NCBI GenBank assembly: GCA_023249405.1
Contig: JAHFCR010000006.1
Location: 1-64,000, forward strand
Length of the DNA: 64,000 nucleotides
From: Peptococcaceae bacterium
Lineage (GTDB): Bacteria > Bacillota > DSM-12270 > Thermacetogeniales > Thermacetogeniaceae
Direction: 5' to 3'
Part shown: one piece after another, positions 1 through 17,003 of the stretch
How positions within the stretch are numbered: the first letter of the stretch is position 1
Layout of the letters: the number at the start of each line of letters is the position of its first letter
Notes under the pieces: generated by a model
Databases searched by the model: none
Told to the model about the DNA's origin: nothing
Seen by the model: the letters and a program-made list of their open reading frames with translations, nothing else
Position numbers and translations under genes: made by a program

Positions 1-460
1 TGCGAACTATTACCTGCCCGACATGGACCACCTGATCAAGGAAAAGCTGCGCATCAAGCACTACCTCCGCTACATGGATGATCTCACGCTGCTGCACCAC
101 GACAGGGCATACCTGAAACACTGCCGGGTGGAGATAGAATGTCACCTGGCCGGAATCAGGCTCAAGCTGAACCCGAAGACGCAGATCTTCCCGCTCCGCC
201 AGGGAGTAGACTTTCTCGGTTTCCACACCTACCTGACGGAGACGGGAAAGGTGATCAGAAAGCTGCGCCGGGACAGCGTGCGGCGGATGAAAAGGAAGAT
301 CAGACATTTCAAGAGGGAGTTTGCCCGGGAAGGGATGATCTGCGGGGAACAGGTCCGGCAGTGCCTCGCTTCCTGGAGCGGTCACGCCGGGCATGGCGAC
401 ACCTATAACCTGCGGCGGAAATTGTTAGGAAAATTGATCTTGAGGAGGAATGGAGCATGA
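1..460 (+). CDS. Reverse transcriptase, C-terminal part (DGR-like), cut by window edge
   Basis: The reading frame is already open at base 2, so only the C-terminal ~152 residues are present. They include the catalytic palm motif RYMDD in a context typical of bacterial reverse transcriptases, preceded by a NYYLPDMDH segment resembling the ANxYLxxLD motif. It continues with the KLNPKTQIFPL and GVDFLGFHTYL motifs and ends with a thumb-like SWSGHAGHGDTYNLR segment. No maturase X domain or HNH nuclease follows, which argues against an ordinary group II intron protein. The stop overlaps the next start (ATGA), so the two genes are probably translationally coupled. The pairing with a C-type-lectin-like secreted protein suggests a diversity-generating retroelement. 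Retron or unclassified RTs remain possible because the N-terminus and any template repeat lie outside the window. Confidence 0.85.
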   Translation, partial: ANYYLPDMDHLIKEKLRIKHYLRYMDDLTLLHHDRAYLKHCRVEIECHLAGIRLKLNPKTQIFPLRQGVDFLGFHTYLTETGKVIRKLRRDSVRRMKRKIRHFKREFAREGMICGEQVRQCLASWSGHAGHGDTYNLRRKLLGKLILRRNGA

Positions 461-1578
461 AGAAACATGTCCAGCGGTTCGTTTACCTGTTGCTGGCCGT
501 GGTGCTGTTGGCAGGGGCCCTGCTTGCCTGGCCCGGAGGCGCCCGGGCGGGCGCACTGGAACCATTGTCGTCCCTGGCCCAGGGTGATACGGTGACCTTC
601 GCCGGTTACACCTGGATCGTGCTGGACCCCGGCACGGGCTACCTGCTGATGCAGGGTTCTTTGAGCTACCGGCAGTTTGATTCGAATGCCACCAACACGT
701 TTGATCCTACCAGTTCAACCAACGTTGCCTACTATCTCAAAAATACGTTTTACAATAGCCTGCCTACCGCTGATCGGGCATTGATCCAGACCTATCCCTG
801 GACCACCGGGAATGAAACCAACGAATCGTCAGGCAGCGTCGGTGCAAAGATCGGCCTGCTCAGTTACAGCGAATATAACACCTATCAAAGCGTTACCGGC
901 GTAGTAAATTCAAGTTATGATTGGTGGCTCCGCACTCCCTATTCTGGCCACTCCAGCGCCGTCTGTCTCGTGACTACCGGCGGCGGCCCGGACGTCGTCA
1001 ACGCCCTCAACGTCTACGCCGTCCGTCCCGCTTTGTATCTGAATCCTGGAATCTTGGTATCTGGCGGTCATGGAGGTGCCGTGATCGGAGGAGCATATGA
1101 AAGCGTTAGCGTATTGATCAATTCTGCTGCGGGTGGCACGGTTACGGGCGGGGGGGCATATACCGACGGAACTGCGGTGCAGGTTACGGCCACTCCCAAC
1201 AGCGGTTATGATTTCACTGGCTGGACAGATGCCAGCGGGACGCAGGTCAGCGCCGCCGCCTCGTACAGCTTCACGATGGGTACCGCGGCTACAACTCTGT
1301 CGGCCAACTTCCAGTCTATTCCGGTGATCACTGTAGTGAACGGTGTATCGTTTTCCGTGACCGTCAACGACACCGGCGGCACCCTGACCGGCACCAACAC
1401 CACTTACGGCACCCTGACGAGTATTGCCGGTGGCAATAACGGCAATGTCATCTCGGGCACCCTGAGCGGACTCTCGACCACCACTCCCACGGATATCCAC
1501 CTCGGGTCCGGCACGATCGAAGTCCAGGCCGTCAGTCCGCCCTCGACCACCCTGGACAAGTCCAGGTCGTTTTATTGA
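457..1578 (+). CDS. Secreted DUF6273/C-type-lectin-like protein, probable DGR target
   Basis: A 373-residue protein with a signal peptide (hydrophobic core ~8-26, then ARAGALEP). Residues ~40-200 match the DUF6273-type domain: GDTVTFAGYTWIVLD at its start, DWWLRTP before a variable-looking stretch, and AVRPALYLNP at its end. This fold is used by diversified ligand-binding proteins. A beta-rich bacterial repeat domain (TATPNSGYDFTGWTD, ~residues 220-290) and a Gly/Thr-rich tail follow. The start is supported by GAGGAGG at 442-448, and it overlaps the RT stop by 4 bp. The variable-looking part is internal rather than at the C-terminus, which is unusual for DGR targets. There is no SLH or sortase motif, so retention at the surface is unclear. 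The domain call is strong; diversification is inferred. Confidence 0.75.
   Translation: MKKHVQRFVYLLLAVVLLAGALLAWPGGARAGALEPLSSLAQGDTVTFAGYTWIVLDPGTGYLLMQGSLSYRQFDSNATNTFDPTSSTNVAYYLKNTFYNSLPTADRALIQTYPWTTGNETNESSGSVGAKIGLLSYSEYNTYQSVTGVVNSSYDWWLRTPYSGHSSAVCLVTTGGGPDVVNALNVYAVRPALYLNPGILVSGGHGGAVIGGAYESVSVLINSAAGGTVTGGGAYTDGTAVQVTATPNSGYDFTGWTDASGTQVSAAASYSFTMGTAATTLSANFQSIPVITVVNGVSFSVTVNDTGGTLTGTNTTYGTLTSIAGGNNGNVISGTLSGLSTTTPTDIHLGSGTIEVQAVSPPSTTLDKSRSFY
922..1050 (+). repeat. Candidate DGR variable repeat (VR)
   Basis: This segment encodes residues ~156-198, from WWLRTP to AVRPALYL. Between these conserved ends most codons end in C (GGC, CAC, TCC, AGC, GCC, GTC, CTC, ACC, GAC, AAC, TAC). 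That pattern would arise if a template rich in AAC codons had been mutated at its adenines. Many genes here also prefer C-ending codons, so the pattern is only suggestive. No near-identical template repeat was noticed elsewhere in the window. Confidence 0.4.
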
Positions 1579-1597: not shown

Positions 1598-4189
1598 ATG
1601 ATGAAGCGAGTAAGGCCCCAACTGTGGAAAGTGCTGCCGGTGCTCTTTGTGCTCGGCCTGTTCGGATTCCTGGCTCATCCGGCATACGCCGGCAACGCCC
1701 CGTCCTCGGACGTCTTGGTGCAATGCGACAGCAGCGGCGTGGTCACGAACAATACGGTAGTCAGCAGTGTGTACCTGCCGATTGCGGCCGATACTTCCGG
1801 GAATTTCTACCTGACCAGCGTGGATGCCGCCGTCTATTCGGGAAGTGAAAGCAACTTCGACACCTTCGTCACGGAACAGGACGGCTTCAGCAGCACCCGG
1901 CTGCAGATCGGCCTGGGCGCCGTCACCCACTACGACTCCGGCACGATCTACGAGATCGAGTTCCGCGGCCACTACGGCGTCGTTGGCTCAGCCGCCCAGA
2001 ACATTACAGAGGACTGGCAGGATTCAGGGCTCTATTTCGAGCCGGTGCTGCCCCTGTCCAGCGACGCCACCCTGGCCAGCTTGCTCGGCCAGGCGATCAG
2101 CGCCACCGGCGGAACGGGATCTTCTACTTCCGACCCGAAACTGGCGACCATCAACGTGGCGAACTCCGATTCCTCTGTGGCATCTGGCAACATCGTCGCC
2201 GATGATTCCAACGCCACGGTGACCTTCTACGGCACCGACAGCAGCTTCACCACTCCCGAGACGGGCAGTGTCAGCCTGACGGCCGGCGGGGAGACCAGCG
2301 TCTATATCAAGGTCGTGCCGCAGGACACAACCACCACACTCTATTACGAGGTGACCATAGACCGGGCGGCATCCCTGTCCAGCGCCAGAGATATCCTGAC
2401 CTTCAGCGTTGCCGGCCAGGTGGGCTCCTCGCTGATCGACACGGCCAGCCACACCGTCACCTTCTACATGCCGTCCGGGACCAGCGTGAACTCATTGGCG
2501 CCGGTGATCACGGTATCATCATCCGCCACGGTCTCCCCAGCGTCGGGAACAGCGGGGAACTTCACCAACCCGGTGACCTACACCGTCACCGCCCAGGACA
2601 GCTCGACCCAGAACTGGACGGTCACCTGCACGGTGCAGCAGCCCGGCAGTCCCGTTCTCCAGGGCATCACTCCCTCTTCCGGGCTGGCAGGCGCCAACGT
2701 GACGCTCAGCGGATCCAATTTCGGCTCGGTGGCCGGCGCAGTCTATTTCACCCAGAGCGGCAGCCAGCATGTGGTGGCCGGCAGCAGCTGGTCCGACTCC
2801 GGCGCCCAGGCAACCGTGCCAATGAGTCTCTCGCCCGGAAGCGTCAGCGTGGCTGTCTACAACGTAGCCTCCGGCCTGAGCAACCCACTGACGTTCACGG
2901 TCACCACCCAGACGCAGCACCCGGCGGCGCCTACGATCAGCCCGGGCACCGGAACCTACTCCTCGGCCCAGACAGTCACCATCGGCAATATCCCCACCGG
3001 GGACACCGCCTACTACACCACGGGCAGTACCGGCCCGACACTCTCCAGCACGCCGTACACCGGCGCTTTCACCGTGAGCCGGACAGAAACGGTCACGGCG
3101 GGGGTCTACGACACTGCGGGGGGCTGGAGCAGCTTCACCAGCGCCACGTTTACCATCAGCACCAGCAGCAGCAGCGGTGGTGGCGGTACCTCGCACCCGG
3201 TCAACAACACCGGCACGGCCACGCTCACCCCTGCCACCGGTGGGACAGTCTCGCTGGGCAGCGATGTCTCGGTTACCATCCCCAAGGGCGTCCTGGCAGG
3301 GGATACTTCCGTAGCGGTGGCGGTGACCGAGGATCCCTCGCCCCCGGCCGCGCCATCCGGGTTCATGCTGCTGGGCAGCGTCTACCAGTTCACCGTGGGC
3401 GGAGCGAGTCACTACACCTTCGGCGGTGCAGTCACCATCGCCATCTCCTTCGACCCGGCCAAGCTGCCGGCTGGTCAGGCCCCGACTGTCTACTACTACG
3501 ATGACGCCAAGGGCCAATGGGTGGACATCGGGGGCACGGTGAACTGGACGAACGACACGATCACGGTAAGCGTCAACCACTTCACTGAGTTTGCCGTGCT
3601 CGCCACCAAGAGCGCAGAGTCAACGGCTACCGCATCCACATCAACAACCTTCTCCGACGTCTCTACATCCTACTGGGCCTACAGTGCCATCGGCAGTTTG
3701 AGTTCCAGGGGCATCGTTTCCGGTTACCCGGACGGCAGCTTCAAACCAAGCGCCAAGATCACCAGGGCGGAGTTCGCCGCCATGCTTGTTAAAGCCCTCG
3801 GACTGAACGTTGGAACTACCGGCAGCTTCACAGACGTCGCATCCGGTGACTGGTGTTACAGCTCCGTCAATGCTGCCGTCTATGCAGGACTGGTCTCCGG
3901 CATGGGTGATCACCTGTTTGCTCCGGGCGCCCTGATCACCAGGGAGCAGATGGCCGTGATGGTCGCCAAGGCTCTGGGGAGCAAGGCTCCTGCCGTCACT
4001 GGGACCGAACTGAACGCCTTCAGCGACAGGCCGGATGTCAGCAGTTGGGCGATCACCGGCATGGAAGAGGCTGTGAAGGCGGGTATCGTCAGCGGTACCA
4101 CCGCCAACACGCTCGCTCCCCTGGCTAACGCCACTAGAGCCCAGGCGGCGGCGATGGTCTACAAGCTGCTCAGTGTCTTGGGCAAGTAA
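1598..4189 (+). CDS. Secreted multidomain S-layer (SLH) surface protein
   Basis: An 863-residue exported protein. The signal peptide ends near HPAYA-GN (~31). Beta-sandwich regions follow: a cadherin-like/DUF5018-like stretch (~170-345), an IPT/TIG domain beginning LQGITPSSGLAGANVTLSG (~350-440), a chitobiase C-terminal-like domain with PGTGTYSSAQTVTI (~445-525), and a ZU5-like segment (IPKGVLAGDTSV, ~560-665). Three SLH repeats (~685-860) carry motifs such as YPDGSFKPSAKITRAEFA and should anchor the protein to pyruvylated wall polymer. The start is set by GGGGGTGA just upstream. It lies 19 bp after the lectin-like gene and may be cotranscribed with it as structural partner or anchor. Its binding function is unknown. 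Most ORFs on the other strand here are GC-driven shadows. Confidence 0.85.
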   Translation: MMKRVRPQLWKVLPVLFVLGLFGFLAHPAYAGNAPSSDVLVQCDSSGVVTNNTVVSSVYLPIAADTSGNFYLTSVDAAVYSGSESNFDTFVTEQDGFSSTRLQIGLGAVTHYDSGTIYEIEFRGHYGVVGSAAQNITEDWQDSGLYFEPVLPLSSDATLASLLGQAISATGGTGSSTSDPKLATINVANSDSSVASGNIVADDSNATVTFYGTDSSFTTPETGSVSLTAGGETSVYIKVVPQDTTTTLYYEVTIDRAASLSSARDILTFSVAGQVGSSLIDTASHTVTFYMPSGTSVNSLAPVITVSSSATVSPASGTAGNFTNPVTYTVTAQDSSTQNWTVTCTVQQPGSPVLQGITPSSGLAGANVTLSGSNFGSVAGAVYFTQSGSQHVVAGSSWSDSGAQATVPMSLSPGSVSVAVYNVASGLSNPLTFTVTTQTQHPAAPTISPGTGTYSSAQTVTIGNIPTGDTAYYTTGSTGPTLSSTPYTGAFTVSRTETVTAGVYDTAGGWSSFTSATFTISTSSSSGGGGTSHPVNNTGTATLTPATGGTVSLGSDVSVTIPKGVLAGDTSVAVAVTEDPSPPAAPSGFMLLGSVYQFTVGGASHYTFGGAVTIAISFDPAKLPAGQAPTVYYYDDAKGQWVDIGGTVNWTNDTITVSVNHFTEFAVLATKSAESTATASTSTTFSDVSTSYWAYSAIGSLSSRGIVSGYPDGSFKPSAKITRAEFAAMLVKALGLNVGTTGSFTDVASGDWCYSSVNAAVYAGLVSGMGDHLFAPGALITREQMAVMVAKALGSKAPAVTGTELNAFSDRPDVSSWAITGMEEAVKAGIVSGTTANTLAPLANATRAQAAAMVYKLLSVLGK

Positions 4190-4253
4190 TTCCGTATAGG
4201 CGCTGCAAGGATGATGCCGTTGAAAGCTCACGCTACGGCACTCAATGGTGAGG

Positions 4254-4288
4254 CAAGGCAGCTTTGGATAAACTCCAAAGCTGCCTTG
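4254..4288. terminator. Perfect 14-bp hairpin after the surface-protein gene
   Basis: CAAGGCAGCTTTGG and CCAAAGCTGCCTTG form a perfect stem with a 7-nt loop, 65 bp after the stop. No T-run follows on the plus strand, so it is a likely but not canonical terminator. Confidence 0.6.
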
Positions 4289-4391
4289 TAAGTTAAAGTG
4301 CCCAAGCAACTGACAAAATATTTACTTTCCATATTCATAGGGAAAAATCAACACGATATGACGAATAGCCAAAAAATATTCACCAAGAATA

Positions 4392-4442
4392 TTGACAATT
4401 GGATCTATCTATGTAATAATGGTTACATTATAATAATTATTG
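4392..4442 (+). promoter_or_regulatory. Promoter with PerR box upstream of perR-rubrerythrin
   Basis: TTGACA at 4392-4397 is followed at ~16-17 bp by a -10-like TAATAA/AATAAT. Immediately downstream, TTATAATAATTATTG (4428-4442) matches the PerR box consensus TTATAATNATTATAA at 13 of 15 positions. This predicts peroxide-responsive autoregulation of the operon. Confidence 0.7.
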
Positions 4443-4459
4443 TTGATTAGGTGGGTATC

Positions 4460-4891
4460 ATGGATGAGATCCGGATGCTATTTAAGCAGAAGGGCCTGAG
4501 GGCCACCCCCCAACGGGAAGCGATCTTCCGGGTGCTTGCCGGCAGCAAGGCCCACCCCAATGCCGAGCAGGTCTATCAGCAGGTACGGCAAACCTTCTCC
4601 TCCATCAGTTTTACCACCGTCTATAAAACCATGCAGACCCTGGAGGAAGCGGGGCTGCTGCAGCGATTCAACACGGGCGCCAACGTCTACCGTTACGACG
4701 CCAACGTTCATCCGCACCCCCATTTTATCTGCCTGAACTGCGGGAGAGTGGATGACCTGAAGGAGTTTCCGGCCGACCTCAATGATTACTTAGAGAGCGC
4801 GGCCAGGTCCACTCCCAATCGATTGAGGTTTGTCAATCTGCATTTTTTCGGTTACTGCCCACAATGTGCGCCAGGTAACCAAGATCAATAA
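4460..4891 (+). CDS. perR: Fur-family peroxide regulator, PerR-like
   Basis: A 143-residue Fur-family repressor. The winged-helix part contains LRATPQREAIF and SFTTVYKTMQTL. The metal-binding part has HPHPHFICLNCGRVDDL and ends with FGYCPQC, giving the two CxxC pairs of the structural zinc site. The ATG at 4460 is preferred over the upstream GTG because AGGTGGG lies just before it. The PerR box in the promoter and the rubrerythrin gene 21 bp downstream favour PerR over Fur or Zur. In PerR, histidine oxidation by peroxide at the iron site releases DNA; the residues visible here are compatible with that but do not prove it. Confidence 0.85.
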   Translation: MDEIRMLFKQKGLRATPQREAIFRVLAGSKAHPNAEQVYQQVRQTFSSISFTTVYKTMQTLEEAGLLQRFNTGANVYRYDANVHPHPHFICLNCGRVDDLKEFPADLNDYLESAARSTPNRLRFVNLHFFGYCPQCAPGNQDQ

Positions 4892-4912
4892 AAAACCAAA
4901 GGAGGCAAGCAA

Positions 4913-5332
4913 ATGGATGAGTTGAGCAACGAGGCCAAAGTAGGTATCTGCAAGGGAACGGAGCTGGAGAACGACGTAGCGATGGAGTTTCGAGGCGAAA
5001 CCTGGGAAGTGGGAGCATATCTGGCGATGGCCCGGCAGGCACAGCGCGAGGGTTTGCCGGAGGCGGCCCGGGTGCTGGAGTCCATCGCCCTGGAAGAAGC
5101 CTGGCACGCCGCCCATTTCGCCGAGCTTAACGGTGTCATCTCCGAGAGTACCAAGGAAAATATCGAGAAGATGCTCAAAGGCGAACGTCAGGCAAACGTC
5201 GGCAAGAGGAAGGCTGCCATCAAGGCCAGAGAGCTGGGGAGCGATCACGCCAGCGACATCCTGAACGAATCTTCCCGCGACGAGGCCCGGCACGCCCATG
5301 CCTTGGAAGGCTTACTGAAGCGCTATTTCTAA
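4913..5332 (+). CDS. Rubrerythrin-type diiron protein without rubredoxin domain
   Basis: A 139-residue ferritin-like four-helix protein. Helix motifs carry the expected diiron ligands: [35 protein letters not shown] and [18 protein letters not shown]. The C-terminal rubredoxin CxxC module of classical rubrerythrin is absent, so electrons must come from another protein. It likely reduces peroxide in the cytoplasm of an anaerobe. The RBS AAAGGAGG sits just upstream, and the gene is second in the perR operon, which ends at a strong terminator at 5370. Confidence 0.88.
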
Positions 5333-5369
5333 GCAGACCTGATGGATGTAAGATCACAGTGGCAACAAC

Positions 5370-5407
5370 AAATGCCCTCTTATCTCATCAAAGACAAGAG
5401 GGCATTT
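5370..5407 (+). terminator. Intrinsic terminator of perR-rubrerythrin operon
   Basis: AAATGCCCTCTT and AAGAGGGCATTT form a perfect 12-bp stem with a 14-nt loop, followed by further Ts. Confidence 0.9.
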
Positions 5408-5431
5408 TTACGTTTCAGTAGGCCTAGGGCC

Positions 5432-7279
5432 TTAACCTAAAGGAAAATTCAGGCAGGATGCGAACAGGTGGCTGAAGTTCGGATAGGCGCTGAGTTCCAC
5501 ATACTCGGTAAAGTCGGCGATCATCCCTGCCCGCCGGTATTCACTGCGCGACAGCAATGCGGCCTTGGCCCCGGCTCCGGCGGCATTGCCAACAGGCCTC
5601 ACCCGGCTCTCCAGTGCCTGGGGAATCAGGCCAATGGCGCAGGCGCTATGGGGGTCGAGGTAATTACCGAAGGCGCCTGCCAACAGTACCTCTGCCACTG
5701 CATCGAGGTCGCAGCCGAGACGTTCCAAGAGCACCTGGATCCCGGCAGCAATGGCCCCCTTGGCCAACTGCAGCTCCCGGATGTCTCCCTGGGTGATCAT
5801 GATCGGGCGGCCGTCTACCGTCTCCGGTGCAGTTGCCAGCACAAAGGCCTTGACGCCGCTTTCCAGCTTCACGCTCCGATCGGCATAACGTTCCGCCTCC
5901 GCCGTCAACTGATCCGGAGATAGAATCCGTCCCCTGAAATCCATAATACCCTGCTGCAGGAGTCCGGCTACCGCATCCAACAGGCCTGACCCGCAGATGC
6001 CCTGAGCCCGGCCGCCTCCGATAACGGTGAATTTCAAGCCGTCATCGAAACGCACGTGATCGATCGCCCCGATCGTGCCGCGCATGCCGCCACTGATCTG
6101 GGAGCCTTCAAAGGCAGGCCCGGCCGCTGTGGAGCAGGCAACCAGGCGTTCCTTGGAGCCCAATACAATCTCCCCATTGGTGCCGATATCGATCGCCAGT
6201 TTAATGCCCTCGCTCCAATCGAGGTCTGTGGCCAGCAGCACCCCTACCGTGTCCGCCCCTACATAACCCGCAATATTGGGCAGGGCGTAGATCATACCGG
6301 CCGGGTTAACCTGCAGTCCCAATTCCCTCGCAGTCAATACCATCGGCTGTTGGAGCACGGGGATGTAGGGCGCCAGGGCCAGATTCCCGGGGTTGATCCC
6401 CAGGAACAGGTGGTGCATGGTGGTGTTTCCGACCACGGAGACAGTATAGATATCCTCGCGTTGCATTCCCGCCTGTCCGGCCGCCTCACCGATCAGGCCG
6501 TTAAGTTCCGAAATGATGGCCTCATGCAGTTCCGATAGACCGCCCTCTTCATGCGATGCAAAAGCGATGCGGGTGATCACATCAGCGCCGTACCTGGTCT
6601 GGGGGTTTAAAGCCGATACTGCGGCTAGCTCCTGTCCCGTTCGGAGATCCAACAAATAACCGACCACAGTGGTGGTCCCGATGTCAAAGGCGATCCCCAA
6701 CAGTCTGTCTGTGGTGTTTAGCGGTTCCACGCCCCATATTTTTTCCTGATCTGCCAGCACCGTAACGCGCCAGTTTGCCGCCCTGAGAGTTTGAGGCAGT
6801 GCACGCAACAGTTCCAGGGCAGGCTTGTCCCCAGCCGTTAGTCCGGCCTGTTCGGTTGAGTCGCGCAGGTGCTCCCAATCAGGTTGCTGGTGCTGCAAGT
6901 CCGGGGGGTCCATTTCCAGGTAAATCTTATTCAAATGAGGCTCCAGCCTGATCTGTTTTTCTACCGCCGCGATCAGGATCTGGTGTTTTGGGGTGGTCAC
7001 GTAGGGAAGCTCCACCACCGTATCTCCGGTGATCCTGGCCAGACAGGCCAACCGGAAGTCCTTAGCCAATGATTCCTCATCCAAAAGTTCCTGCTCCGCC
7101 GGAGTTGGCGCTACCGCTCCCGTCGGGATCTGCAGGCGGCATTTGCCGCACTTGCCCCGCCCCCCGCACGGAAAATCAAATTCGAACCCGGCCAGGTTGA
7201 TCGCATCCTTGACCGTGATCCCCGGGGAGACATAGATCTCCTGATTGACTGGTTGAAAGGTCACTTTGCAGCGCTTCAA
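5432..7279 (-). CDS. RACo-like [2Fe-2S]/ASKHA corrinoid activation protein
   Basis: A 615-residue protein. The N-terminal plant-type ferredoxin domain has CGGRGKCGKC (~38-47) plus a later cysteine (LACLA, ~79), the [2Fe-2S] ligand set. After a linker, residues ~190-600 form the actin-like ASKHA ATPase (DUF4445) with AFDIGTTTVVGYL, SVVGNTTMHHLF, AIDIGTNGEIVLG and LLAGAFGNYLDP. Family members use ATP to reductively reactivate Co(II) corrinoid proteins of methyltransferase systems. No methyltransferase operon is adjacent; the only corrinoid protein in this window is the decayed gene at 44.4 kb. Transcribed alone, convergent with rubrerythrin. The exact partner is unknown. Confidence 0.85.
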   Translation of the reverse strand: MKRCKVTFQPVNQEIYVSPGITVKDAINLAGFEFDFPCGGRGKCGKCRLQIPTGAVAPTPAEQELLDEESLAKDFRLACLARITGDTVVELPYVTTPKHQILIAAVEKQIRLEPHLNKIYLEMDPPDLQHQQPDWEHLRDSTEQAGLTAGDKPALELLRALPQTLRAANWRVTVLADQEKIWGVEPLNTTDRLLGIAFDIGTTTVVGYLLDLRTGQELAAVSALNPQTRYGADVITRIAFASHEEGGLSELHEAIISELNGLIGEAAGQAGMQREDIYTVSVVGNTTMHHLFLGINPGNLALAPYIPVLQQPMVLTARELGLQVNPAGMIYALPNIAGYVGADTVGVLLATDLDWSEGIKLAIDIGTNGEIVLGSKERLVACSTAAGPAFEGSQISGGMRGTIGAIDHVRFDDGLKFTVIGGGRAQGICGSGLLDAVAGLLQQGIMDFRGRILSPDQLTAEAERYADRSVKLESGVKAFVLATAPETVDGRPIMITQGDIRELQLAKGAIAAGIQVLLERLGCDLDAVAEVLLAGAFGNYLDPHSACAIGLIPQALESRVRPVGNAAGAGAKAALLSRSEYRRAGMIADFTEYVELSAYPNFSHLFASCLNFPLG

Positions 7280-14481: not shown

Positions 14482-14580
14482 GCTAACCGCCGCTAAGACT
14501 CCCGCTTCTTGAAGCGGGAGCGCCGTATCCGGGCTGACGCCCGGCCTGAAAGAAAACGGCACAGGTAAGCGGCGGTTAGC
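14482..14580. repeat. 99-nt nested inverted-repeat element (structured RNA or IS-derived)
   Basis: An outer stem GCTAACCGCCGCT/AGCGGCGGTTAGC (13 bp, perfect) encloses three more stems: CTCCCGCTTC/GAAGCGGGAG (14499-14520), GCCGT/ACGGC (14522-14560) and, inside it, CCGGGC-TGAC-GCCCGG (14529-14544). No coding potential was seen. The architecture fits a structured RNA or a non-autonomous element related to IS200/IS605 ends. The whole 14349-14838 gap otherwise holds a second hairpin at 14616 and GGAATTCC palindromes (14700-14725). Confidence 0.6.
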
Positions 14581-14615
14581 CGGGTACCCTTTGGGTGGGA
14601 TAACATCTTCTAAGA

Positions 14616-14643
14616 TTCAGATGGGGTTAAAACCTCACCTGAA
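14616..14643. repeat. Hairpin repeat copy 1 (TTCAGATGGGG...TCACCTGAA)
   Basis: A 28-nt imperfect palindrome whose arms pair with G-T wobble. A nearly identical 27-nt copy occurs at 29651-29677, differing mainly in the loop. It lies 35 bp after the 99-nt element. Confidence 0.65.
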
Positions 14644-14699
14644 TAAAGAATTTGTTTATCGAGAATACGGAATCCTAGATCTAATTGTTCCGTAAATTT

Positions 14700-14725
14700 G
14701 GAATTCCACATTTGCGGAATTCCGC
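14700..14725. repeat. Tandem GGAATTCC palindromes upstream of hutP
   Basis: GGAATTCC at 14700-14707 and GCGGAATTCCGC at 14714-14725 are perfect palindromes 6 bp apart. ACGGAA and TTCCGT arms lie just upstream. They could be an operator or a hairpin; their role is unknown. Confidence 0.4.
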
Positions 14726-14838
14726 GCAGATTGCTGCGCCCGAATAAGAGAAGCAAAAATCTACGAGCAGGTAAACAGCCCTCCCCGCGGAGAATAATAA
14801 TTTGCAGCTAACATCCAAATAATGTGAGGTGAATCACC

Positions 14839-15270
14839 ATAACTATCGGAAGTACGGCGATCAGGCTGGCGCTGGCGGATAGCGAGTCCCAACCGGACAT
14901 CATCAATAAGGCAAAGGGGCAGGGATACCGGGTGGTGGTCGGCAGGGTGGGTTCCATGGCCGCAGAGAAGATCGTGGCGGCCATCGAGACCGCAGTCGGC
15001 CGGGAGGGCCTGCTGGCAGAGACCTATCGCCACGAGCACTCCCTCTACCACGCCGTGATCGAGGCGATCTACGGCGTATGCCGGGGGCAATTGGAGTTGG
15101 GTAACCTGCTGCGCACGGTCGGCCTCAACTTCGCGGTGGTACGGGGCATCCGCAGCCCAGAGGCGGCTACAGACGGCGAATGGCTGGCAGTAGCTCTGTA
15201 TGGCACTATCGGAGCGCCCAAGAAGGGCTTCGAACACGAGGTGTGCGGCCTGGGGGTGAACCACATCTAA
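14839..15270 (+). CDS. hutP: HutP, histidine-responsive antiterminator, apparent ATA start
   Basis: A 143-residue protein matching HutP along its length: VVVGRVGSMAAEKIVAAIE, HSLYHAVIEA, NLLRTVGLNFAVVRG, VALYGTIGAPKKG and GFEHEVCGLGVNHI at the C-terminus. The histidines that bind metal in Bacillus HutP (HxxxH and the later EHE) are present. HutP plus Mg2+ and histidine binds RNA and disrupts the hut terminator. The reading frame opens after a TGA at 14830 and contains no ATG, GTG or TTG before GTG 14932, which would remove conserved N-terminal sequence. AGGTGA at 14827-14832 lies six bases before ATA 14839, so ATA is the best start unless there is a sequence error. hutH and the predicted attenuator follow. 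Confidence 0.88.
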   Translation: MTIGSTAIRLALADSESQPDIINKAKGQGYRVVVGRVGSMAAEKIVAAIETAVGREGLLAETYRHEHSLYHAVIEAIYGVCRGQLELGNLLRTVGLNFAVVRGIRSPEAATDGEWLAVALYGTIGAPKKGFEHEVCGLGVNHI

Positions 15271-15361
15271 CCCGCCGGGCAGGTGGACTACCGGCCTATT
15301 CAAGCAGCCACTTCCTATAACCGTAAAAGTGTGCTATAAGTGAATAGATAGATCCTACTCA

Positions 15362-15420
15362 TAGGCATCAGTCGCACAGGGAGTAGAGGCGAGCAATCGC
15401 GCTCTGCTTCTTTTGTTTTT
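15362..15420 (+). promoter_or_regulatory. HutP-type attenuator: NAG triplets and terminator before hutH
   Basis: GTAGAGGCGA-GCAA-TCGCGCTCTGC (15383-15407) forms a terminator stem, followed by TTCTTTTGTTTTT. On its 5' side, CAG (15377), TAG (15384) and GAG (15391) are separated by exactly 4 nt, the spacing known for HutP-bound NAG triplets. TAG (15362) and CAG (15369) form another pair. HutP binding would block the terminator when histidine is present. Confidence 0.75.
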
Positions 15421-15458
15421 ACAGGGTTTTATCTGGGGTTTTTAGAGGAGGCAAGACC

Positions 15459-17003
15459 ATGATCGAGATCCAATCCACCCTGGGCACCGTCTTCATCGAC
15501 GGCAACAGCCTGACCCTGGAGCAAGTGGTCGCGGTGGCCCGCTCGCAGGCTCCGGTAGCGTTGCACACCAGTGGAAAGACTAACCTTCTCCGGTCGCGGC
15601 AAGTAGTAGAACAGATCCTCGATTCCAACCAAGTTGTCTACGGGGTGACCACCGGCTTTGGCAAGTTTTGCGACACCCCGGTCTCCCGCGAGGATAGCAG
15701 CGCCCTGCAGCAGAACCTGATCATGAGCCACGCCGCGGGCGTAGGCGAACCACTGCCCCGGGATGCTGTACGGGCGATCATGCTGCTGCGGGTAAACTCC
15801 CTGGCCAAGGGCTACTCCGGCATCCGGCTGACAACAGTGCAGTTGCTCCTGAACATGCTCAACAACGGCATCCATCCTATGGTCCCCTGCAAGGGTTCTG
15901 TGGGCGCCAGCGGCGACCTGGTGCCCCTGGCCCATATCGCCCTGGCCATGATCGGACTGGGAGAGGTGGAATATCGCGGCCACATCATGCCGGCGCCAGA
16001 AGCTCTGCGGATGGCCGGGCTGAAGCCGGTCGCCCTCACCGCCAAGGAGGGCCTGGCCCTGATCAACGGCACCCAATATATGAGCGCCCTGGGTAGCCTG
16101 GCGGTACACGATGCGCTGCAGCTACTGAAGGCGGCCTGTATTGCCGCCTGTGTCTCCTTTGAGGCGTTGGAGGGAATACCTAACGCCTTCGATCCCCGGA
16201 TCCAGGCTGTCCGGCCGCACAGGGGCCAGGCTGCCATCGCGGGGGTCATGAGGCAACTGCTGGAGGGCAGCGACCTGCTGACCCGGAAGAAACACCGGCG
16301 AGTGCAGGACGCTTACACCCTCAGGTGCATCCCCCAGGTATTGGGCGCCTCGCTGGATGCGATCAACTACGTGAAGCAGGTGCTGGAGACCGAGATCAAC
16401 TCGGCCACCGACAACCCCCTGATCTTTCCAGATACCGGCGATGTCATCAGCGGCGGTAATTTCCACGGGCAACCTCTGGCCCTGGCCCTTGATTTTCTGG
16501 CCCTGGCTGTATCGGAACTCGGCAGTATCTCCGAGCGCCGGATCGAGCGGATGGTCAATCCGGCCCTGAGCGGACTGCCACCCTTCCTGACCGAGCACGG
16601 CGGCCTGAACTCCGGCCTGATGATCTTGCAATATACGGCTGCGGCCCTGGCTTCAGAGAACAAGGTATTGGCGCATCCGGCCAGCGTGGACTCCATCCCC
16701 ACCTCCGGCTGCCAGGAGGATCATGTAAGCATGGGCTCCATCGCCGCCCGCAAGGTAGGCGCCGTAATTGAAAATGTCTCCTGGATCATCGCCGGCGAAC
16801 TGCTGGCAGGCGCTCAGGCCCTGGATTTCACATGCCACACCCCGGGGCGGGGCAGCCGCACTGCTGCCGGCCAGATCAGAGAGGTCGCGCCCCACTGGAA
16901 TGAGGATCGGATTCTCAACCAGGACCTGCACCGCGTCCACGACCAATTGCTGTCCGGATCGCTGGTCGACAAGGTGGAGTCGGAAACCGGGCTCCTGCTC
17001 TGA
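15459..17003 (+). CDS. hutH: Histidine ammonia-lyase
   Basis: A 514-residue enzyme converting L-histidine to urocanate and ammonia. The MIO cofactor-forming Ala-Ser-Gly triad is in GSVGASGDLVPLAH (~142-155). Other family motifs include VYGVTTGFGKF near the N-terminus, SATDNPLIF and GGNFHGQPLALALD. The length is normal. The RBS GAGGAGG lies 7-8 bases before the ATG. Only hutP and hutH are found; hutU, hutI and hutG are not adjacent, so urocanate must be processed by genes elsewhere or excreted. Its expression is predicted to be controlled by the upstream attenuator. Confidence 0.95.
   Translation: MIEIQSTLGTVFIDGNSLTLEQVVAVARSQAPVALHTSGKTNLLRSRQVVEQILDSNQVVYGVTTGFGKFCDTPVSREDSSALQQNLIMSHAAGVGEPLPRDAVRAIMLLRVNSLAKGYSGIRLTTVQLLLNMLNNGIHPMVPCKGSVGASGDLVPLAHIALAMIGLGEVEYRGHIMPAPEALRMAGLKPVALTAKEGLALINGTQYMSALGSLAVHDALQLLKAACIAACVSFEALEGIPNAFDPRIQAVRPHRGQAAIAGVMRQLLEGSDLLTRKKHRRVQDAYTLRCIPQVLGASLDAINYVKQVLETEINSATDNPLIFPDTGDVISGGNFHGQPLALALDFLALAVSELGSISERRIERMVNPALSGLPPFLTEHGGLNSGLMILQYTAAALASENKVLAHPASVDSIPTSGCQEDHVSMGSIAARKVGAVIENVSWIIAGELLAGAQALDFTCHTPGRGSRTAAGQIREVAPHWNEDRILNQDLHRVHDQLLSGSLVDKVESETGLLL

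Follow-up and report, generated by a model that had tools for sequence, protein, structure and literature searches.

Sequence comparison indicates that the locus at the start of the analysed stretch of 64,000 nt (hereafter the window) very probably descends from a diversity-generating retroelement (DGR). What is left of it is read here, with reasonable confidence, as a decayed, host-chromosomal, tentaclin-like DGR that holds a frozen variable repeat (VR) and an intact secreted target. A first-pass annotation had proposed a DGR-like locus at this site, and the ancestry, the lectin-like target and, by homology, the internal VR are borne out by our results. A working DGR, in contrast, was not demonstrated, because no template repeat (TR) occurs in the genome and contig C86, which continues the locus leftward, is without the N-terminal half of the reverse transcriptase (RT).

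Table 1. Features of the locus and of the loci compared with it (window positions unless a locus is named).
Feature	Position	Strand	Basis and remarks
RT, C-terminal part, DGR-type, 152 aa	2..460	+	Open frame; YMDD; QIFPLRQGVDFLGFHTYLTETGKVIRKLRR; GHGDTY C-terminus
Secreted DGR target-type protein, 373 aa, intact	457..1578	+	Sec-type signal peptide, DUF6273, InlB B-repeat, ~85 aa tail
Inferred VR, WWLRTP-YSGHSSAVCLVTTGGGPDVVNALNVYA-VRPAL	922..1038	+	Register with TR/VR of relatives; codon statistics
SLH-domain surface protein, 863 aa	1598..4189	+	Pfam SLH x3; 19 nt 3' of target
ISL3 transposase, truncated-looking	L067:6233-7075	-	Partial family-model match; single copy in genome
Phage nd12 (locus L189)	TR 3142-3247; RT 3416-4471; target 4456-6195; VR 5129-5234
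Target-after-RT relatives	L021-L024, L026-L029, L031, L037, L047, L048, L050-L055		Order TR-RT-target
Upstream target, C-terminal VR locus	L071

The target gene and its neighborhood

As the first-pass annotation had noticed, the window starts within an RT with a YMDD motif that overlaps a DUF6273 protein: the RT has an RVT_1 match and the target protein a DUF6273 match in Pfam, and the RT stop codon TGA (458-460) and the target ATG (457-459) overlap as ATGA. In the target, Pfam places DUF6273 at residues 89-196 (E 1e-12) and an InlB B-repeat domain at residues 218-288 (E 6e-20), and the protein has phrog_9958 in common with DGR targets. Its AlphaFold2 model (mean pLDDT 54) is only fair over residues 33-204 and poor after that. 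Foldseek with this model matched phage DUF6273 proteins (E 3e-7) and, weakly, C-type lectins in the PDB. The identification of DUF6273 with the C-lectin fold follows the published assignment, and the target is regarded as a putative lectin. A phmmer search of the PDB returned nothing significant, a search of viral contigs with the target found no relative, two same-genus genomes searched lacked a homologue, and an Rfam search of the window gave no match.

The SLH protein reported directly downstream is present with its three SLH domains. Its gene is possibly in one transcript with the target, and, judging by gene adjacency, the SLH protein may display the putative lectin. The genes 3' of it code for Fur, rubrerythrin, a RACo-type protein, Hsp20, alcohol dehydrogenase, an ABC1 kinase, and others. 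On the other side, C86 beyond the ISL3 transposase carries Coat_F, proteins of 444 aa and 374 aa with no Pfam match, a Vut_1 transporter, QueF, and a Cu_amine_oxidN1/PD40 protein. Because the flanking genes are housekeeping genes, the locus is part of the host chromosome and not of a prophage. In relatives, the neighbors along C86 and the window contig are not conserved together.

The assembly junction and the truncated reverse transcriptase

The window corresponds to bases 1-64000 of contig C103 in the source genome (G000), a draft of 3.57 Mb in 168 contigs that is 98.8% complete, and window position 1 is the contig end. The 3' end of C86 (7566 bp; locus L067), at L067:7447-7566, is identical to window positions 1-120 on the forward strand, an exact overlap of 120 nt. 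When the RT was searched at protein level against the genome, the same site came up as a second match (C86:7448-7564, 100% identical). Since overlaps of 119-121 nt or identical 120-nt starts are also seen at other contig ends in this genome, the overlap is most likely the assembler k-mer and C86-C103 an edge of the assembly graph. The two contigs were left unmerged, therefore another path at the junction is implied. The ISL3 transposase was ruled out as the source of the break, being single-copy in the genome, and a collapsed repeat is unlikely, as a longer common repeat would stand as a separate contig between both. Elsewhere in the assembly, the initial 300 bases of contig C22 (L148) exactly overlap their own reverse complement, which suggests either that this contig end is palindromic or that a run of N is masked there.

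Extending the locus leftward had been recommended, and C86 does continue the RT (L067:7388/7424-7566), but the N-terminal half including motif A is absent from that contig. Close full-length relatives were used to make a 353-position profile. Run against C86 plus window in six frames with all filters off, it matched from position 190 (GNLASQLFANYYL, L067:7424) to position 342 with 228 bits, so that RT homology in C86 begins at the GNxxSQ motif. Profile positions 1-189, among them the catalytic motif A, which reads LKCDIxKYF in relatives, found no match in C86 plus window, and no upstream RT motif in any frame of the preceding 320 nt scored above shuffles. DAQAFRGKVH, read in a different frame at L067 about 7308, was considered as a remnant of motif A and rejected, as another segment scored higher and 45 of 500 shuffles equaled it. 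The weak upstream extension NTLWYLIAD reached a best single shuffle fraction of 0.005, among many comparisons.

The near-copy of the VR expected as a template, whose absence within 10 kb of the RT the first-pass annotation had set as a refutation of its proposal, was likewise not found, neither in the window and C86 nor anywhere in the genome. BLAST detected no TR in the genome; a 54-nt degenerate pattern, in which any VR base may be A and 3 mismatches are permitted, recovered only the VR itself from the whole genome; and a direct 112-nt scan of 788 kb gave none, the next best segment having 29 non-A mismatches. No avd was found at the upstream position in C86, where the open reading frames are the ISL3 transposase, Coat_F, and the two without Pfam match. 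Because the RT N-terminal half, TR, and avd are missing from the assembled genome, diversification in cis has probably stopped.

The organism, or a haplotype co-occurring with it, could still carry a complete and active DGR, with the other arm of the graph (RT 5' half, TR, and avd) left unbinned and the lectin diversified today. This is unlikely, though the most serious of the alternatives, and several observations agree with it. The 120-nt overlap implies an unresolved branch, and neither the target frame nor the RT 3' half is disrupted, both being well conserved, at 53-59% identity with complete relatives. In addition, the fetched contigs reach down only to about 3.2 kb and small contigs appear absent from the bin, so the bin may lack a short contig that bears an intact RT 5' end and the TR. 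However, C86 passes from RT into unrelated sequence within one contig built from ~120-nt k-mers, which means that the sample does contain the truncated arrangement, and no TR and no other DGR RT occur in the 98.8% complete genome. These results favor the decayed DGR.

The variable repeat and its register with relatives

Fifty-six RT relatives were collected, comprising 26 loci from GTDB genomes, 20 from IMG/VR, and 10 from phylum relatives. A finder that permits mismatches at only one base of the putative template detected, in about 40 of them, TR/VR pairs near the RT that differ at TR adenines only. In a control on 24 loci, the A class was found in all 24, compared with 1 for C, 4 for T, and 9 for G; the G class (16 pairs in its 9 loci) may consist of VR-to-TR mirror images, as mutated adenines often read G. 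Avd-like proteins are located upstream of the TR in relatives.

The codon pattern of the window target had been noted before: 21 of the 27 codons between WWLRTP and VRPALYL (940-1020) are C-ending (78%), compared with 40% in the remainder of the gene. None of the 27 ends in A, and the segment is A-poor. This bias alone is undiagnostic, since the SLH gene has 27-codon stretches with as many as 22 C-ending codons. The codon register with the templates of relatives is what would make the pattern diagnostic of a DGR. Templates of relatives (e.g., SPNAANSYNVRNVNTSGTLNNNNAYNGNRGVRPL) align gap-free to TPYSGHSSAVCLVTTGGGPDVVNALN of the window, and for each relative all 7-10 aligned template AAC/AAT codons correspond to NNC/NNT in the window. 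In the TR/VR pairs of the relatives themselves, the third base is kept in every in-frame AAY codon. Moreover, the 3' end of the window VR, CGTCCCGCTTTG, is similar to the VR 3' ends of relatives. Since its own TR is absent, leaving no TR/VR pair, the VR is assigned by homology.

It is improbable that the target is simply a DUF6273 lectin whose loop is C-rich by nature and which follows an RT fragment by chance. The equally strong C-ending runs in the SLH gene are compatible with such a coincidence, as is the occurrence of DUF6273 proteins in genomes without an RT, such as the one-contig genome G117, in which no RVT_1 match was found anywhere. However, the RT belongs to the DGR clade and shares 4 nt with the target, an arrangement similar to that of the TR-RT-target relatives, and neither the register with the templates of relatives nor the relative-like VR 3' end fits a chance arrangement. 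In G117, several DUF6273 domains are found in large proteins resembling the window target (L120; G117:C1:1863000-1881000).

An internal VR had been expected from the gene, and indeed 185 residues remain after the last variable codon (1020). The first-pass annotation considered this position unusual, which does not hold: every relative whose target follows the RT has an internal VR, behind which about 100 to over 1000 residues remain, and an internal VR has also been published for tentaclins. In these relatives the target is a DUF6273 protein wherever Pfam was run; the targets of L024 and L031 were read on the forward strand. Targets that precede the RT have a C-terminal VR, in most cases some 20-30 residues short of the end. 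Across L021-L066 and L069-L077, target position thus tracks VR position (after the RT, internal; before the RT, C-terminal), and this pairing provides a testable rule on the placement of homing signals. In a termite-gut clostridial DGR (L023:10465-13869), one secreted protein carries two VRs that both match one TR, and a further DUF6273 gene downstream (14559-15479) has a VR-like segment, making it a multi-target host DGR.

Affiliation of the reverse transcriptase

The YMDD motif lies at about residue 24 of the RT fragment, which matched RVT_1 at positions 133-204 (E 3e-6) and the PHROG reverse transcriptase family with E 1e-48. In a tree comparing only the C-terminal ~150 aa, it nests among the DGR RTs that have TR/VR pairs and is separated from the non-DGR RTs (support 88, quick method), among which the C3 RT of the same genome was included. 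This placement agrees with the earlier expectation that the RT would not group with group II introns or retrons. Phage DGR RTs are the nearest matches, and the best phage relative is nd12, with 55% identity over 87%. A full-length DGR RT query against the source genome recovered one further RT, on C3, which is distant and non-DGR. That RT (G000:C3:9230-9959), broken across two frames, is group II-like and does not belong to the DGR clade. An origin of the fragment from a group II intron, retron, or abortive-infection/DRT system is hardly credible, given that its weak matches to DRT and group II models are, for NCBIfam, far under the cut-off, that the tree sets it apart from the non-DGR RTs of its own genome and of relatives, and that its nearest relatives have TR/VR pairs.

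A possible history of the locus

For the decayed DGR favored here, the ancestor would have been a tentaclin-type DGR of the order avd-TR-RT-target, in which the RT overlapped the target start and the VR lay within the DUF6273/C-lectin domain, with more domains after it. The ancestral RT would have reverse-transcribed TR RNA with errors at adenines, and the mutated copy would have homed into 922-1038, where template AAY codons became random NNY codons on the lectin binding face. The RT N-terminal half with motif A, the TR, and avd would then have been lost, with a single cut-short ISL3 transposase in their place, leaving behind an intact secreted lectin with one frozen variant. Homology, gene order, the VR register, the truncation in C86, and the absence of a TR are directly observed, and from them we infer past mutagenesis of the VR, the loss of activity, and the lectin function. 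A bolder and rather doubtful scenario is that the bacterium captured a phage-type lectin DGR, diversified a secreted protein with it to explore binding specificities, and then lost the mutator while keeping the lectin, some cells possibly still having the intact version at the branching assembly junction.

Comparison with known systems

Tentaclins have been described in the gut phages nd12 and nd4 (PMC10743442; OR777946, OR777945). In their DGRs, as at the window locus, the RT overlaps the target start (by 16 nt in nd12 and 11 nt in nd4) and the VR lies inside the DUF6273/C-lectin domain with more domains behind it. However, nd12 and nd4 have a TR upstream of the RT, whereas the TR, avd, and the RT 5' half are absent from the window locus, which moreover lies in a host chromosome and codes for a signal peptide and an InlB B-repeat that replaces the Ig/Fn3 chain. 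The similarity between the window target and that of nd12 is weak, 30% from the VR onward (E 5e-5). The window target, like tentaclins, has an N-terminal DUF6273/C-lectin domain with a VR, yet it is not classed as a tentaclin; Pfam found in it no C-terminal Ig domain with the tentaclin consensus, and the InlB B-repeat stands there instead. The locus provides a host-chromosomal, secreted counterpart to the phage tentaclin DGRs.

C-terminal VRs have been given as the rule (PMC8144416), and DUF6273 targets with the VR in the N-terminal half have already been described (PMC10743442). Since relatives and published tentaclins share it, the internal VR is a known variant and not a novelty. DUF6273 VRs have also been reported in Faecalibacterium prophages, where Hoc-like/DUF6273 targets similarly have the VR at the C-terminal end of the DUF6273 domain (PMC11792537). 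Those targets are prophage-borne, with DGR activity seen in reads of two phages, while the window target is chromosomal and secreted and has an InlB repeat. The termite-gut clostridial DGR L023, from a MAG, is a host-type system that resembles the window locus in the order TR-RT-target and in a secreted multi-domain DUF6273 target, there with List_Bact repeats, and internal VRs; unlike the window locus, it has a complete TR and two VRs in one protein.

Degraded DGR cassettes are known from cyanobacteria, in which the RT of Anabaena sp. 90 is flanked by transposases and all3226 shows remnant TR-VR homology with no RT (PMC7517822). As at the window locus, parts needed for diversification were lost and the variable protein or the RT was kept, with transposases near in one case. 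The cyanobacterial examples belong to another DGR lineage with other targets, whereas the window locus retains an RT fragment and its target together, and it is a candidate for a DGR caught after loss of the mutator with the target still intact.
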